From NCBI RefSeq assembly GCF_013409345.1, contig NZ_JACCBB010000001.1, positions 3,782,001 to 3,846,000 on the forward strand: a stretch of DNA of 64,000 nucleotides, written 5' to 3'. Positions 4,284 to 54,072 of the stretch are shown here, in pieces; positions within the stretch are counted from its first letter, which is position 1; every line of letters begins with the position of its first letter. The notes beneath the pieces are model-generated. The model saw nothing but the letters and a program-made list of their open reading frames with translations, searched no databases and was not told the origin of the DNA. The translations under genes were made by a program, and so were the position numbers. The stretch comes from Kineococcus aurantiacus (GTDB lineage: Bacteria; Actinomycetota; Actinomycetes; Actinomycetales; Kineococcaceae).

Positions 4284-5012
4284 TCAGGCGTCCAGGTCCA
4301 CGTGGTGCACGCGGTTCTTGCCGGCCGCCTTCGCCGCGTACATCGCGTCATCGGCCGCGCGCACGAGGTCCTCCCCGGTGCGGCCGGCCGCCGTCGCCAG
4401 GGCCAGCCCGACGCTGGCGCCGACGCGGACGCTGCCGGCGCTCAGGGCGAACGGCCGGGACAGGGCCTCGACCAGCCGCCCGGCCACGGCCAGCGCCTGC
4501 GCGTCGGTGCCGGGGTCGGCCGTGGCCGTGAGGAACTCGTCGCCGCCGAGGCGGCCCACGAGGTCCGCGGAGCGGCAGCCGGTCCGCAGCCGGCCGGCGG
4601 CCGCGGTGATGAGCTCGTCCCCGGCGGCGTGGCCGTACCGGTCGTTGACGGCCTTGAACCCGTCGAGGTCGACGAAGCACACCGCCACCCGGGTCCCCCG
4701 CGCGGTGGCGCGCTCCAGCAGCCGGTCCAGCCCGTCGAGCAGCCCGGCCCGGTTCGCCAGCCCGGTCATGCCGTCCAGCAGGGCGCGCGAGCGCAGCTCC
4801 TCGTGCAGCCCGGTCATCTCCTCGGCGGAGATCCGCATGGCCCGTTCCAGCACGTACCGGGAGCGGTCGTGCTCGGTGTAGACGTCGGAGACGCCGGTGA
4901 GCAGCCGCTGCCAGCGCTCGGGGTCCGGGACGGTGGCCGCGTCCAGGCCCAGGCGGCGCAGCTGCCGGGCCAGGACGCGGTGCACGGCGCCGTCGGGGGA
5001 GGGGTCGGTCAC
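4284..5012 (-). CDS. Diguanylate cyclase (GGDEF domain)
   Basis: This 242-residue soluble protein carries a complete GGDEF domain at its C-terminus (about residues 78-240) and should make cyclic di-GMP. The catalytic motif GGDEF is intact at 156-160. An RxxD product-inhibition site (RSAD, 147-150) lies five residues upstream, so feedback control is expected. The first 75 residues are helical with no recognised sensor. The GTG start overlaps the stop of the FIST gene as GTGA, which implies that FIST supplies the sensory input. There is no EAL domain. Confidence 0.93.
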   Translation of the reverse strand: MTDPSPDGAVHRVLARQLRRLGLDAATVPDPERWQRLLTGVSDVYTEHDRSRYVLERAMRISAEEMTGLHEELRSRALLDGMTGLANRAGLLDGLDRLLERATARGTRVAVCFVDLDGFKAVNDRYGHAAGDELITAAAGRLRTGCRSADLVGRLGGDEFLTATADPGTDAQALAVAGRLVEALSRPFALSAGSVRVGASVGLALATAAGRTGEDLVRAADDAMYAAKAAGKNRVHHVDLDA

Positions 5013-6172
5013 GGGCGCTCGCCCAGGACGGCGACGGTGAGCGTCTCGTTGTGCAGGTCGCACGAGCGCGCCGCCGTCGGCGCCAGCTCGCCGTAGGTGT
5101 AGAAGCCCAGCACGGGGGTCCCGGCGGGCAGGCCGGCCACGACCGACTCCAGCTCGTCCTCGGTGCGCGAGCCCAGCGCCAGCCGGCGTCCCAGGCAGGT
5201 GACGACCAGGGCCAGGCCGACGGGGACGTCCGCGGCGGCGACGGCCCGGCGCGCGGCCTGCTCGGCGGCGTCGGCCAGCGCCTCGGAGTCCTGGTGCAGC
5301 AGCTGGGCGGTGCAGCCCTGGGGCACGTCGCCGGTGAGCAGGATGGTGTCGGTGGCGTCGTCGACGTCGAGGACCGAGCGCACCACGGCGGTGCCGTGCT
5401 CGCCGGGGCGGCGGATGGCCAGCGGGAAGCGCAGCCCGGCCACCGGCAGGCCGCGGGCCTCCTCGCCGAGGTAGCGCTTGTAGAGCGCGAGCGCGGGCTG
5501 CCCGTCCAGCTCGTGCAGGGTGGCGCCGTCCGCGCGGGTCACCCGCCGCTGCGGGCCCAGGTCGGCCCAGCCGCTGCCGGTGCCCACGCTCAGCCCGACG
5601 CGCTCGCCGTAGAGCCCGACGGCGGTCACGACCCCGGTCCGCGGCCGGCCGTCGACCAGCACCCAGCACGGCGGCAGCAGGCCGCCGGGCGCGGGCAGCC
5701 CGGCGCTCATGCCGCCGAAGACGGGGACGGTGCCGCCGGTCCCGCGGGACAGGCCCTCGGCCAGGGCGTTGCCGACGACGTCGCGGCCGTGGGCCAGGAC
5801 GAGGACGGCGGCCAGGTCCTCGCCGGGGCCCGAGCCGTGGGCGCGCAGGCGGCCGCCGAGGGCGGCGCCGGCCTCCTCGGAGGTGCCCGCGGTCAGCGGG
5901 ACGTGGTCGAGGACGACCCGGGTGCGCTCGAAGGTGACGACGGTGACGAGCACCTCCTCGTCCAGCAGCGCGTCGCCCAGGACGAGGCCGGCGGTGGAGG
6001 CGCCCAGGACGCTGGAGCGGGGGTAGGCGGCCAGCAGGTCGGCGACGGGGACGTCGGGTCCCGGCACGGCGGGGCCGCTGAGCACCAGGACCAGGGTGCG
6101 GGGTCCGTCCACGGCCGGCAGCGGGGTGGACCACCCCTGCGCGCGGTCCCAGCGCGCGTGGTGCACTCGCAC
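5009..6172 (-). CDS. FIST-domain sensory protein
   Basis: This 387-residue soluble protein contains FIST_N (about residues 25-215) and FIST_C (about 220-360). FIST domains are intracellular sensors thought to bind small ligands such as amino acids and are usually tied to signalling outputs. Recognisable parts include the N-terminal SSVLGASTAGLVLG, the central VFGGMSAG, and the C-terminal GFYTYGELAP. The GTG at 6172 was chosen because GGAGG lies 7 nt upstream. Its last bases overlap the start of the diguanylate cyclase, forming a two-gene sensor-output operon. The ligand is unknown. Confidence 0.9.
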   Translation of the reverse strand: MRVHHARWDRAQGWSTPLPAVDGPRTLVLVLSGPAVPGPDVPVADLLAAYPRSSVLGASTAGLVLGDALLDEEVLVTVVTFERTRVVLDHVPLTAGTSEEAGAALGGRLRAHGSGPGEDLAAVLVLAHGRDVVGNALAEGLSRGTGGTVPVFGGMSAGLPAPGGLLPPCWVLVDGRPRTGVVTAVGLYGERVGLSVGTGSGWADLGPQRRVTRADGATLHELDGQPALALYKRYLGEEARGLPVAGLRFPLAIRRPGEHGTAVVRSVLDVDDATDTILLTGDVPQGCTAQLLHQDSEALADAAEQAARRAVAAADVPVGLALVVTCLGRRLALGSRTEDELESVVAGLPAGTPVLGFYTYGELAPTAARSCDLHNETLTVAVLGERP

Positions 6173-6246
6173 GGCGGTTCCTCCTCGGACGGGTCGTCGG
6201 GGTGTTGTCGACGGGTCCGGGGGCGGACTTGACGGCTGCGGCGCCC

Positions 6247-6390
6247 CTACCGGCGCTGCACGGGGTAGGGGAGGGGGTCGGCGTCGGACCACGCGCGGGA
6301 GGTGCGGGTGTCGGCGCCGAAGCGGGGTGCGGCCAGGGCCAGCACCACGAGGACGAGGAGCACGAGGAGGGCGGGGAGGTCGGTGGGCAC
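6247..6390 (-). CDS. Predicted small single-pass membrane protein (47 residues)
   Basis: A GTG-started frame with GGAGG 8 nt upstream encodes 47 residues. The stretch LPALLVLLVLVVLALAAP (about residues 5-22) is an obvious transmembrane segment, followed by a polar tail ending PLPYPVQRR. I do not recognise a family. Two things support it: the good ribosome binding site, and the dyad operator at 6427-6461 just upstream, which is repeated at the neighbouring regulator gene. Coding status remains unproven. Confidence 0.45.
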   Translation of the reverse strand: MPTDLPALLVLLVLVVLALAAPRFGADTRTSRAWSDADPLPYPVQRR

Positions 6391-6426
6391 GCCTTCAGCC
6401 TCCGCCGCCGCGCCGCACCGGACGAG

Positions 6427-6461
6427 TGGCAGTTCTGCCGACGTTCGGCCACATCCTGCCA
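6427..6461. promoter_or_regulatory. Dyad operator, copy 1
   Basis: This 35-bp element has outer arms TGGCAG/CTGCCA and inner arms GCCG/CGGC. It is repeated almost exactly at 7245-7279; over 41 aligned bases 35 are identical. It lies between the small membrane protein gene and the 3' end of the maleylpyruvate-isomerase-like gene. It is likely bound by the DJ-1/AraC regulator encoded at 7310, by inference from position. Confidence 0.65.
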
Positions 6462-6491
6462 AGCGCTCGGGGCCCGCCCGGACGCCCCGGT

Positions 6492-7208
6492 TCAGGGGGT
6501 GAGGGCGTCGCCCAGGACCTCCCGCGCGCGCCGGGCGTCGCCCCGGACGACCAGCCGCGGGTCCCCGCACGTCGTGCGCCGCCACAGCAGGCGCACCAGG
6601 TCGGCGTCCGCCCCGGACACCGACGCCACGACCGGCCCGGTGCCCAGCACCCGGCGCCGCGACCCCAGCAGCTCGACCGCCACCGCGGGCGCCGCCACCC
6701 GGCCCAGCCGGACCTGCCGCGGCAGCACCGTGTCCAGGACCTCCTCGACGGCGTCCGCGACGACGTCCGGGGCGCCCTCGCGCGGCCGCCCCGCGGCGTC
6801 GGCCAGGTCCCACGTGTGCACGAGGGTCTCGTGCAGCTGCCGGCGCCCCCAGTCGGCGACCACGCCGTGCCCGGCGAAGGTCGGGCAGGGCCGGGCCGGG
6901 TCCTCGCCGAGCGCGGTGAGCAGGTCCCGCGCGGCGGCCGCGTACGCCGCGCACGGCGCGGGGTCCGGGGCCGGGTCGGCGTCGTCGGGCACGGTGCCGC
7001 CGACGGGGGTGCGGGTCACGGCCGCGGCCCAGCGGTGGACCCCCGTCAGGTGCGTCACGAGGTCCAGGGCCCGCCAGCCCGGGCAGCCCGGGACGGCGGC
7101 GTCGGGTCCCACCTCGCGGGCCAGGGCCAGGAACGCGCGCTGCTGGGCCTCGAGCGCGGTCCGGACGTCGAGGGCGGGCGGAGCGGGGTGCGGGGAGCCG
7201 GTGGTCAC
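6492..7208 (-). CDS. Maleylpyruvate isomerase/mycothiol-dependent enzyme family protein
   Basis: This approximately 238-residue protein has the DinB-like four-helix bundle of the MDMPI family. The N-terminal helix pattern (CPGWRALDLVTHLTGVHRW) carries the metal-ligand His, and LHETLVHTWDLADAAGRP carries the second conserved His region. The family uses mycothiol or related thiols and zinc, but most members have no assigned substrate. The GTG at 7208 is the only sensible start, although GGAG abuts it too closely to be a good ribosome binding site. It is divergent from the DJ-1/AraC regulator and shares the operator at 7245-7279. Confidence 0.8.
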   Translation of the reverse strand: MTTGSPHPAPPALDVRTALEAQQRAFLALAREVGPDAAVPGCPGWRALDLVTHLTGVHRWAAAVTRTPVGGTVPDDADPAPDPAPCAAYAAAARDLLTALGEDPARPCPTFAGHGVVADWGRRQLHETLVHTWDLADAAGRPREGAPDVVADAVEEVLDTVLPRQVRLGRVAAPAVAVELLGSRRRVLGTGPVVASVSGADADLVRLLWRRTTCGDPRLVVRGDARRAREVLGDALTP

Positions 7209-7244
7209 CTCCGCAGCGTCCTCGTGGTCGCGCCCCCGGGCCAG

Positions 7245-7279
7245 TGGCAGCCCCGCCGAGGTCCGGCCACATCCTGCCA
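7245..7279. promoter_or_regulatory. Dyad operator, copy 2, overlapping the regulator promoter
   Basis: This has the same arm structure as copy 1 (TGGCAG..GCCG..CGGC..CTGCCA). Its right arm CTGCCA (7274-7279) lies 17 nt before CACACT (7297-7302), which is 7 nt before the ATG at 7310. The arm therefore occupies the -35 position of a probable leaderless promoter. This placement fits control by an AraC-type protein, most simply autoregulation. Confidence 0.7.
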
Positions 7280-7309
7280 ACCGGCCCGGGCGCTGGCACA
7301 CTGCCGGTC

Positions 7310-8314
7310 ATGGGGACCAGCGGTGACCTGCACGACGTCGCGGTCGTCGTCGAGGAGGGCTTCTCGGCGTTCGAGTTCTCCGTGGCCTGCGAGGTCTTCG
7401 GCATCGACCGCGCCGACGACGGCGTGCCGCCGTTCCGCTTCGCCGTCTGCACCGAGCAGGAGGGCCCCGTGCCCTCCCGGCAGGGCTTCTCCCTCACGGC
7501 CGACCACCGCCTCGACCGCCTCGACGACGCCGACCTCGTGATCGTGACCCCCACCAAGCGCGGGTTCGAGCCGCCCGGCGACCAGCTCACCGAGCGCCTG
7601 CACGCCGCGGCGGCGCGCGGGGCCACCGTCGCCAGCTTCTGCAGCGGCGCCTTCACCCTCGCCCACACCGGGCTGCTCGACGGCCGCCGCGCCACGACCC
7701 ACTACATGTACGCGACCGAGCTGGCCCGCCGCTTCCCCCTCGTCGAGGTCGTCCCCGACGTCCTCTACGTCGAGGACGGCCCCATCGCCTCCAGCGCGGG
7801 CACGTCGGCGGGCATCGACCTGTCCCTGCACCTGGTCCGCCGGCACCACGGCACCGCCGTCGCCACGGCCATCGCCCGCCGCATGGTCGTGCCCCCGCAC
7901 CGCGACGGCGGGCAGGCGCAGTACGTCGAGGCCCCCGTCCGCCCGTGCGCCGACGAGTCCCTGGCCGCCGCCCTGGACTGGGCCGCGGCGAACCTGCACA
8001 CCGAGATCGACGTCGCCGCCTGGGCCCGCGCGGCCACCATGTCCCCGCGCACCTTCGCCCGCCGGTTCCGCGCCGAGACCGGCGTCACCCCCCACCGCTG
8101 GCTGCTGGAGCGCCGCGTCACCGCGGCCCGGCTGCTGCTGGAGGAGGGCGACGAGAGCGTCGACGAGGTGGCCCGCTGCTGCGGCTTCGGCTCCGCGGCG
8201 ATGCTGCGCCAGCACTTCCTGCGGCTCGTCGGGACCACCCCCACCGCCTACCGCCGCACCTTCCGCGGCACCCGGTCACCCGACCCGGTCCGCCTCGTGC
8301 CGGCAGGCGCATGA
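7310..8314 (+). CDS. GlxA-family transcriptional regulator (DJ-1/PfpI plus AraC)
   Basis: This 334-residue protein joins an N-terminal DJ-1/PfpI-like domain (about 1-190) to a C-terminal AraC-type double helix-turn-helix (about 215-320). The DJ-1 nucleophile elbow is present as ASFCSGAF. The DNA-binding part contains TPHRWLLERRVTAARLLLEE and VARCCGFGSAAMLRQHF. Such proteins are regulators, often of amine, thiol or nitrogen metabolism, and the ligand is unknown. The ATG at 7310 fits a leaderless start. The stop overlaps the ATG of the YihY gene (ATGA), so the two are coupled. Nearby dyads are probably its operators. Confidence 0.92.
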   Translation: MGTSGDLHDVAVVVEEGFSAFEFSVACEVFGIDRADDGVPPFRFAVCTEQEGPVPSRQGFSLTADHRLDRLDDADLVIVTPTKRGFEPPGDQLTERLHAAAARGATVASFCSGAFTLAHTGLLDGRRATTHYMYATELARRFPLVEVVPDVLYVEDGPIASSAGTSAGIDLSLHLVRRHHGTAVATAIARRMVVPPHRDGGQAQYVEAPVRPCADESLAAALDWAAANLHTEIDVAAWARAATMSPRTFARRFRAETGVTPHRWLLERRVTAARLLLEEGDESVDEVARCCGFGSAAMLRQHFLRLVGTTPTAYRRTFRGTRSPDPVRLVPAGA

Positions 8315-9168
8315 GGTTCCTGCGCAGGCTCTTCGCGGACGTCCACGCCCGCCTGCACGGTCACGACCTCTTCCTCGTCTCGGCGGGGGTCACCTTCTAC
8401 GCCGCCATCGCCCTCGTGCCCTCGCTCATCGTCGTGGTCCGGCTGCTGGCCGCCGTCATCGGGCCCGGGCAGGTGCTGGAGCTGGCCGACGCCGTCGGCC
8501 GCGCCCTGCCCAGCGCCCAGGGCGCCGGGGACGTCGTGCGGGAGCTGGCGGCGCGCGCCGTCGACGTCGGCTGGGTCGCCGTCGTCGTGGCCTTGGTGCC
8601 CGCGACCGTCTACGGGGAGGGCCTGCGGCGCGGGTTCGCGCGCGTCAGCGTGCGCCACCCCGAACCGCCCCCCGCCGCCGTGCGGGGCCGGGTGGGGGCC
8701 TGGAAGGTGCGGCTGCAGGCGCTGCCGCTGCTGCTGCTCGCCCCGGCGGGCTTCCTCGCCGTCCTGGAGGTCGCGCCCTGGCTCGTGCGGCTGTTCGGCT
8801 CCGGGACCCCCGGGTCCGTGCTGGCGGTGTACATCGCGCTCAACGTCGACTGGCTCGTCGTCTCGCCGGTGCTCGTCTACGTCTACAAGGTCCTCGGACC
8901 GGTCCGCCCGGGGTGGTGGGCCGCCCTGTGGGGCGGCTACGCCACGGGCGCGTTCGTCTCCGGCTTCCTGCAGGGCTTCGTGCTCTTCCTGGCCATCCCC
9001 GTCGACCTGGGCGCCCCCTTCGGCGGGTTCACCCAGGTCGGGGGGGCCGTCGCCGTCTGCCTGTGGCTGTGGGTGTTCACGGCGCTGAGCGTGTACGGCT
9101 ACGCCGTCACCCTGGAGCTGCAGCGGCTGCGGGACCGGCGCCACCGGCACGAGGTCAGCGCAGCGTGA
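8311..9168 (+). CDS. YihY/BrkB-family membrane protein
   Basis: This 285-residue integral membrane protein has about six hydrophobic segments. It shows the family-typical N-terminus ([24 protein letters not shown]) and C-terminus ([10 protein letters not shown]). The family was once called ribonuclease BN by mistake; its true role, possibly transport or lipid flipping, is not settled. The start overlaps the regulator's stop as ATGA. Its last 14 nt overlap the convergent chemoreceptor gene, so both reading frames end inside each other. Confidence 0.88.
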
Positions 9169-53010: not shown

Positions 53011-54072
53011 GTGTTCGAAGCCGTCCAGCCGCTGCTCGACGAGCACGCCGAGCTCGAGCGCCGGCTGGGTGACCCCGCCGTCCACGCCGACCAGGGCCTG
53101 GCCCGCAGCCTGGGCCGGCGGTACGCCGAGCTGGGGCAGGTCGTCGAGGCGTACTCCGCCTGGCGCGCGGCCACCGACGACGCCGGGGCGGCCCGCGAGC
53201 TGGCGGCCGAGGACGCCGGGTTCGCCGCCGAGCTGCCCGCGCTGGAGCAGGCCGTCACCGAGGCCGGCGAGCGCCTGCGCCGCGTCCTGCTGCCGCGCGA
53301 CCCCGACGACTCCCGCGACGTGATCCTGGAGATCAAGGCGGGGGAGGGCGGGGAGGAGTCCGCGCTGTTCGCCGGGGACCTGCTGCGCATGTACCTGCGG
53401 TACGCCGAGCGCCACGGCTGGGCCACCGAGCTGATCGACTCCACCCCCAGCGACCTGGGCGGCTACAAGGACGTCTCGGTGGCGGTCAAGACGCGCGGCA
53501 GCACCGCCGACGGCGTCTGGCACCGGCTGAAGTACGAGGGGGGCGTGCACCGCGTGCAGCGCGTCCCCGTCACCGAGTCCCAGGGGCGCGTGCACACCTC
53601 CGCCGTCGGGGTGCTCGTCATGCCCGAGGCCGAGGAGGTCGAGGTCGCGATCGACCCGAACGACCTGCGCATCGACGTCTTCCGCTCCTCCGGCCCCGGG
53701 GGCCAGAGCGTCAACACGACCGACTCGGCCGTGCGCATCACCCACCTGCCCACGGGCATCGTCGCCAGCTGCCAGAACGAGAAGTCGCAGCTGCAGAACA
53801 AGGAGCAGGCGCTGCGGATCCTGCGGGCCCGGCTGCACGCCGTGGCCCAGGAGGCCGCCGACGCCCAGGCCTCCGCCGCGCGCCGCTCCCAGGTGCGCAC
53901 GGTCGACCGGTCCGAGCGCATCCGCACCTACAACTACGGCGAGAACCGCATCGCCGACCACCGCACGGGCTTCAAGGCGTACAACCTCGACACCGTCCTG
54001 GACGGCGACCTCGACCCCGTCATCCAGTCGGCGATCGACGCCGACGAGGCGGCGCAGCTCGCGGCGTCCTGA
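53011..54072 (+). CDS. prfA: Peptide chain release factor 1
   Basis: This 353-residue factor terminates translation at UAA and UAG. The codon-recognition tripeptide is PVT ([15 protein letters not shown], the RF1 type) and the catalytic motif is GGQ ([16 protein letters not shown]). GTG at 53011 follows GGGAG. The methyltransferase for its GGQ glutamine, prmC, is the next gene. Confidence 0.97.

Follow-up and report, generated by a model that had tools for sequence, protein, structure and literature searches.

A doubled probable operator beside a DJ-1/AraC regulator of Kineococcus aurantiacus looks like a local rearrangement of a class-wide regulator-micropeptide divergon

DJ-1/AraC regulators are common in actinobacteria, and to our knowledge a site or a target has been established for few of them other than AdpA. 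AdpA of Streptomyces has the same two-domain architecture as the regulator described here and provides the closest solved DNA-binding domain (3w6v, E 4.1e-27). The two proteins also have in common the R-T-F-x-R of the first recognition helix, whose arginines in AdpA presumably contact TGGC. The AdpA box TGGCSNGWWY (PMC8653842) shares this TGGC core with a dyad in the window, by which we mean the whole stretch of 64,000 nucleotides of the Kineococcus aurantiacus genome that was analysed. The helices differ, however, in one residue, since the AdpA helix SRRTFDRRF has D where the window protein (SPRTFARRF) and its family have A.

A second point of reference is AraC, which at araBAD binds a pair of adjacent 17-bp half-sites immediately before the -35 region, the position of a class II activator, and whose own gene is divergent and autoregulated. 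By analogy, the layout in the window resembles this AraC/XylS class II arrangement in its candidate adjoining 17-bp half-sites and in the divergent, putatively autoregulated regulator gene. The half-sites here are inverted, however, and not direct repeats as in araI1-I2, the sensor is DJ-1-like and not an AraC arm domain, and the target is probably a leaderless gene for a one-helix peptide. A third system is the AraC-type MSMEG_0307 of Mycolicibacterium smegmatis, for which a conserved motif GTCAGGACATGACTTTTCTTGCT is placed at -57 to -34 before its own gene and one of the two motifs proposed is reported to have been bound (PMC4266540). This motif resembles by eye the left half of the window dyad, but MSMEG_0307 sits in the nat operon and has another target set. 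Two other candidates were set aside: SAV742 has different repeats (GCCGA-n10/n12-TCGGC; PMC5107987), and the ncRNA of PMC6429828 is unrelated to the dyad. Here, we report a comparative analysis of the dyad, which we think is probably the operator of the adjacent regulator, used for class II activation of a divergent gene and for autoregulation, and split in this genome by a duplication.

The gene calls of the initial annotation held for both the regulator and the mycothiol maleylpyruvate isomerase-like (MDMPI-like) protein (Table 1). The regulator combines an N-terminal DJ-1_PfpI domain (PF01965, 49.3 bits against a cut-off of 26.6) with a C-terminal HTH_18/HTH_AraC region (PF12833, 82.3 against 33.6; PF00165, 55.4 against 26.6) and so belongs to the DJ-1/PfpI-AraC (GlxA/AdpA-type) group. 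Its best NCBIfam match is FtrA (NF006902, residues 8-320, E 4.7e-107), but it is not called FtrA because the score of 357.9 lies below the curated cut-off of 425 bits.

Table 1. Features of the regulator locus, in positions of the window
Feature	Position	Strand	Remarks
Diguanylate cyclase (GGDEF) gene	4284..5012	-	After the FIST gene; same place in G005
FIST-domain gene	5009..6175	-	Downstream of the small gene; repeated in G005 only, among the loci compared
Small membrane protein gene	6247..6390	-	47 aa, GTG start, one hydrophobic stretch; no Pfam match
Small-gene -10-like hexamer GAGGCT, probable leaderless promoter	6397..6402	-	From leader comparison
O1, putative operator	6427..6461	.	Dyad, with 36 bp between its edge and the small-gene GTG
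MDMPI-like gene	6492..7208	-	Between O1 and O2
MDMPI-like gene -10-like hexamer GACGCT, probable leaderless promoter	7215..7220	-	Place as in the small-gene leader
O2, putative operator	7245..7279	.	36 bp from the MDMPI-like start codon on one side, 30 bp from the regulator ATG on the other
Regulator -10-like hexamer CACACT, probable leaderless promoter	7297..7302	+	17 bp after the CTGCCA arm of O2
DJ-1_PfpI/AraC-type (HTH_18) regulator gene	7310..8314	+	334 aa; domain and profile matches
BrkB-type membrane protein gene	8311..9168	+	Overlaps the regulator stop by 4 bp

The two copies of the dyad agree at 30 of the 35 bases of the core, and the 35 identities in 41 aligned bases noted initially were recovered over the extended span (6425-6465 against 7243-7283), as was the distance of 818 bp from copy to copy. 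Nested arms are present as described, but they are not concentric, the outer arms (dyad positions 1-6 and 30-35) being centred on position 18 and the inner GCCG/CGGC on position 17. No other 35-base match to O1 exceeded 21 identities on either strand of the window. When the genome (5,027,298 bases in two contigs) was scanned with the 28 fixed bases common to O1 and O2, allowing up to three mismatches, the pattern matched O1 and O2 only and the control gave 0 hits. An interspersed repeat, the contrary reading raised at the outset, is therefore discarded, since the 28-base pattern occurs at just two places in 5.03 Mb. AdpA differs in this respect, with about 1,500 bound sites (PMC8653842) against two occurrences of the full pattern in the window genome. 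An RNA element was rejected because Rfam yielded nothing for positions 6150-7400 with an E-value of 1 or less and because the transcripts, as inferred, start only downstream of the operator.

Counting the motif over whole genomes proved uninformative, for at three mismatches it occurred 5+4 times in the window genome while a reversed-pattern control occurred 12+18 times. The case for the dyad thus rests on position and not on number, and the association was examined by starting from the regulator and using upstream control windows. With E 1e-85 as the cut-off, the regulator had matches in 91 genomes out of 196 searched in the class, 105 homologues altogether. The region from -160 to +15 of each homologue start was then inspected for TGGCAG-N21-TCCTGCCA, a dyad being accepted if it had no more than two mismatches out of 14. 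The homologue of G491 was set aside from the count as it has 49 bp upstream only. The dyad was present near the start of 89 of the 104 testable homologues, 55 of these without mismatch, and absent from 15; 0 of 309 control windows of equal length, taken farther upstream, reached two mismatches. A second set, consisting of the best 80 named loci among the matches listed, gave the dyad at 69 loci and none at 11, against 1 of 395 control windows. This set partly overlaps the first and the two are not independent, as seen from the same small protein in L236 (Jiangella) and G481.

The site-bearing loci of the second set include Streptomyces, Arthrobacter, Microbacterium, Cellulomonas, Mycolicibacterium, Micromonospora, Amycolatopsis and others. 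In this set a locus of Ktedonospora, which we take to be a genus of the Chloroflexota, scored one mismatch and a locus of Paraburkholderia four. A scan starting from the motif matched 56 of 396 genomes and listed 74 places, 6 of them in the window genome, alongside many hits of the control pattern; among the 29 loci given for other genomes, a regulator homologue was found at 25 and its start lay to the right of the motif at 24. The consensus of 88 sites across the class, TGGCAGgAcTGcCAnnntnCgtCgAnTTcCTGCCA, is best conserved in its outer arms, and its layout would fit a pair of 17-bp half-sites in inverted orientation on either side of a single base. The position of O2 before regulator homologues is conserved class-wide, and O1 and O2 alike have the appearance of operators that serve the neighbouring regulator. 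A similar 35-bp layout with other arms is seen in L194 (G060) and L296 (Paraburkholderia). Operators built in this way, but differing in specificity, may also occur with paralogues and in other phyla.

The presence of the dyad covaries with the recognition helix of the regulator, although the contact itself is putative. All 56 site-bearing proteins read have R-T-F-A-R with A250 in the first recognition helix, and A250 occurs in 1 of the 14 site-lacking proteins read (G217, L202), while eight have the AdpA helix; this reading leaves out L039, L136 and L214 (site-bearing), L201 (site-lacking) and L016. In a single case, L208, a variant helix SSRHLGRHF is accompanied by variant upstream arms CGTCCGGAACGCC...TTCCGGACA. 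These observations bear on the possibility that the dyad is bound by another protein, such as AdpA or a paralogue, and reflects control of the regulator by that protein. Such a binder might be suggested by the paralogue in the window genome (G000:C1:1873720), whose promoter carries a dyad of this kind, and by the relatedness of the AdpA box to the dyad (PMC8653842). The dyad follows the A250 helix, however, and is missing from the own starts of the eight homologues with the AdpA helix. It also follows the regulator within the genus. Among the 39 genomes searched as relatives, 11 are genus members, counting that of the window (G000); nine of the 11 have a regulator orthologue (E 1.5e-150 or better) and all nine have the dyad at three mismatches or fewer, whereas G002 and G009, which are without the orthologue, have no dyad at this threshold. 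We therefore regard another binder as very improbable and keep to the adjacent regulator.

A further residue shared by these proteins is C111, which was found in 56 of 56 site-bearing and 16 of 16 other-group proteins, the latter including L128, where the operator is present, and L125, with 49 bp upstream only. Its position is presumably that of the cysteine of the DJ-1 nucleophile elbow. Since C111 is invariant and AdpA senses sulfane sulfur via a cysteine of its own, C62 (PMC9239190), our guess is that the regulator may respond to a thiol-reactive signal.

The operator stands at a fixed distance from a divergent start codon. A start codon opening at least 25 codons lies 36 bp (20 sites) or 37 bp (58 sites) away at 78 of the 89 sites, as compared with a mean of 1.6 sites for each of the other offsets from 10 to 79, and 11 sites are without one at 36 or 37 bp. 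In the second set this was so for 59 of 69 sites, and six of the ten exceptions bear Micromonospora-like and Streptosporangium names. The genes so placed are mostly small: 73 of the 78 divergent ORFs have at most 100 aa, 67 of these also with a TM-like stretch, and the corresponding numbers for the 59 of the second set are 58 and 53. Five example small proteins gave no Pfam match; in NCBIfam three of them had no match and two had sub-threshold matches only. The small ORF behaves as a gene: when six congeners are compared in pairs, its substitutions number 97, 67 and 161 at codon positions 1, 2 and 3, with a clear preference for the third. The copy 1 site of the window stands, as first annotated, before such a gene, an ORF of 47 codons that would be the usual divergent partner of the regulator.

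The leaders between operator and start codon have an A and a T four bases apart in 100% of the 36-bp class (20 sites) and 98% of the 37-bp class, the T of this A-N3-T element lying 7 or 8 bases before the start codon. A -10 of the type TANNNT is expected of a leaderless transcript, and since this -10-like element is kept in the leader the divergent transcript is probably leaderless, its start being deduced from the -10-like columns. On the other side of the operator the regulator start is less fixed, from -1 to 92 bp (nearest-start guess, 88 sites), so that autoregulation may differ among members of the family. The modes of this distance at -1, 10-11 and 21 bp are roughly one helical turn apart. 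In the congeners compared the regulator has a -10-like hexamer CACACT or CAGACT, and the comparison supports the initial placing of O2 at a probable leaderless promoter of the regulator. The 37-bp leaders (58 sites, e.g. L086 and L126) contain a second, partly dyad stretch, TGGCrGGAT...ATTaCTGCC, which ends at the ATG of the small gene and is a possible second, repressing site; the leaders in the window are without it.

This geometry also bears on how the regulator would act. Many divergons of the TetR or MarR type repress both promoters, and the regulator could likewise bind its operator only as a repressor of both divergent promoters, to be released by a ligand. Repression would be in keeping with an operator that, to its left and to its right, touches or partly covers an inferred -35 region and with the second dyad-like stretch at the small-gene start codon in the 58 sites with a 37-bp leader, and there is a parallel in AdpA, whose persulfidation weakens its binding at the adpA promoter and increases expression of adpA (PMC9239190). 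Across the class, however, the divergent start keeps its distance from the operator to within 1 bp, whereas the distance on the regulator side varies, and since activators near the -35 need such a register and pure repressors do not, we favour activation and hold the repressor-only alternative to be unlikely. If the divergent transcript is leaderless, the operator covers roughly -71 to -37 of it, and the regulator is taken to be a putative activator of the small gene and, in the window, of the MDMPI-like gene also.

The genus comparison indicates how two operators came to stand beside one regulator. Seven congeners (G006, G007, G008, G001, G003, G004 and G010) have a single operator, which separates the regulator from a small hydrophobic ORF that runs divergently and has its start codon 36 bp away, or 37 bp in G004, and a hydrophobic small ORF is found at 36 or 37 bp in all nine regulator-bearing members. 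By eye, the small ORF of G010 appears to be of the same family as that of G004. The MDMPI-like gene lies downstream of the small gene in G006, G007 and G001, and in G006 and G007 its GTG overlaps the small-gene stop as GTGA. Two operators are found in the window genome and G005 only, among the genus genomes compared. Both species have the 36-bp distances given in Table 1, from O1 to the small gene and from O2 to the MDMPI-like gene, and the regulator-side copy of G005 has kept its outer arms with 6 of 28 mismatches. The 36-bp leaders of the small gene and the MDMPI-like gene agree at 20 of 36 bases in the window, a value that about 0.5% of random window pairs reach, and at 19 of 36 in G005, and in both species the two leaders carry a -10-like hexamer at the same place.

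Because there is one operator in seven congeners and two in G000 and G005, the pair O1 and O2 is best read as a duplicated divergent operator. The initial proposal that both copies are operators of the regulator is supported by comparison, and the pair is reinterpreted as the apparent split halves of what in the seven congeners is a single divergent operator. The simplest account of its history would be a tandem duplication that took in the operator, the small gene and the MDMPI-like gene, after which one small gene was lost, from start codon to start codon, together with one MDMPI-like gene. The regulator tree left G000, G005 and the G006/G007 pair unresolved, so that one duplication or an older duplication with subsequent loss are both possible. 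The window would thus be a clean case of a divergent operator doubled in such a way that both the intervening gene and the old partner can stay controlled.

Two other explanations of the pair have to be weighed against this duplication. Loops made by AraC are known, and cooperation of O1 and O2 by DNA looping across the MDMPI-like gene, one of the suggestions made at first, could appeal to the near identity of two sites that flank a single gene at a spacing of 818 bp. Yet seven regulator-bearing congeners manage with one copy, and the spacing is 818 bp in the window genome and 804 bp in G005 (77.9 against 76.6 turns of 10.5 bp), so that helical phase is not kept; we give looping very little chance, while the local regulon proposed together with it is likely. 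As the copies probably arose by duplication, their similarity alone is no proof of function, and it could be a non-functional repeat left by rearrangement. But both copies keep the 36-bp distance and a -10-like element in two species and the dyad is conserved far beyond the genus, which makes a mere leftover scarcely credible.

Sites resembling the operator were also seen elsewhere in the window genome, two further places having perfect outer arms. One (G000:C1:1874681-1874716) lies before the DJ-1/AraC paralogue G000:C1:1873720, which is 52% identical to the regulator, and a divergent ORF of 287 codons opens at a distance of 36 bp from it. The other (G000:C1:221946-221981) lies 37 bp before an ORF that by eye resembles an MFS transporter, and no regulator homologue was found within 1.5 kb of it. 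The same holds for four other places of the motif in this genome, likewise searched to 1.5 kb. As these sites keep 36 or 37 bp before different ORFs, divergent genes may have been swapped while the distance to the operator was kept. A degenerate variant, TGGTAGGAATGCC... at L103:4201-4235, near the start of the paralogue G000:C1:108206, is possibly a diverged operator. In G217, a regulator with the family helix (53072-54037) has no operator at its start and a dyad site is found 3.8 kb upstream on the same strand (G217:C17:49240-49275), which may be another displaced pair.

The mechanism that we propose is as follows. Two inverted half-sites of about 17 bp would each be read by one two-helix domain of the AraC type, the DNA-binding domains belonging to a DJ-1-linked dimer and the first recognition helix contacting the outer TGGCAG arms. 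Bound at the operator, which by analogy with araBAD would have the class II activator position, the regulator would drive the divergent gene from a leaderless start 36-37 bp from the operator edge; this gene would usually encode a one-helix membrane peptide. On the other side the operator would overlap or adjoin the promoter of the regulator, which would thus control itself. In K. aurantiacus a duplication would have given a second copy of the operator together with the leader and the position of the start codon, the MDMPI-like gene replacing the small gene at the regulator-side copy, such that O1 serves the small gene and O2 the MDMPI-like gene and the regulator. The BrkB-type gene, perhaps with the FIST and GGDEF genes, would be carried along by co-transcription. 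Each of the eight congeners with the regulator has a BrkB-type gene after it, probably co-transcribed with it, and the FIST and GGDEF genes are possible members of the O1 transcript. The target set, at first given as unknown, can be narrowed in this way to the two divergent genes, small and MDMPI-like, plus the regulator and any genes co-transcribed with these. Binding, activation, autoregulation and the order of events are what we infer from the comparison, which itself displays the association of operator and regulator, the fixed distances, the -10-like columns and the split.

A dyad of this kind with a small membrane partner was not found described in the open-licence papers searched, and subscription papers might contain such a description. 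For most of the close homologues examined, comparison alone has provided a candidate operator, its half-site layout, a first target and the geometry of control, and as a result binding, signal and regulon are directly testable in laboratory species. The doubling in K. aurantiacus looks like a local rearrangement, and the operator like part of a class-wide divergon of regulator and micropeptide. More tentatively, and with some doubt on our part, these loci could represent an ancient class-wide switch, new to the literature, in which a cytosolic DJ-1/AraC sensor has as its dedicated first output a leaderless single-helix membrane peptide, encoded across a shared operator at a fixed distance, that feeds back on either the regulator or a partner in the membrane, and in which some lineages have copied the operator or swapped the divergent gene, for an MDMPI-like enzyme or MFS-like transporters, with the 36-37-bp register kept. 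If this is true, new genes would be captured by the switch by way of the register that it keeps.
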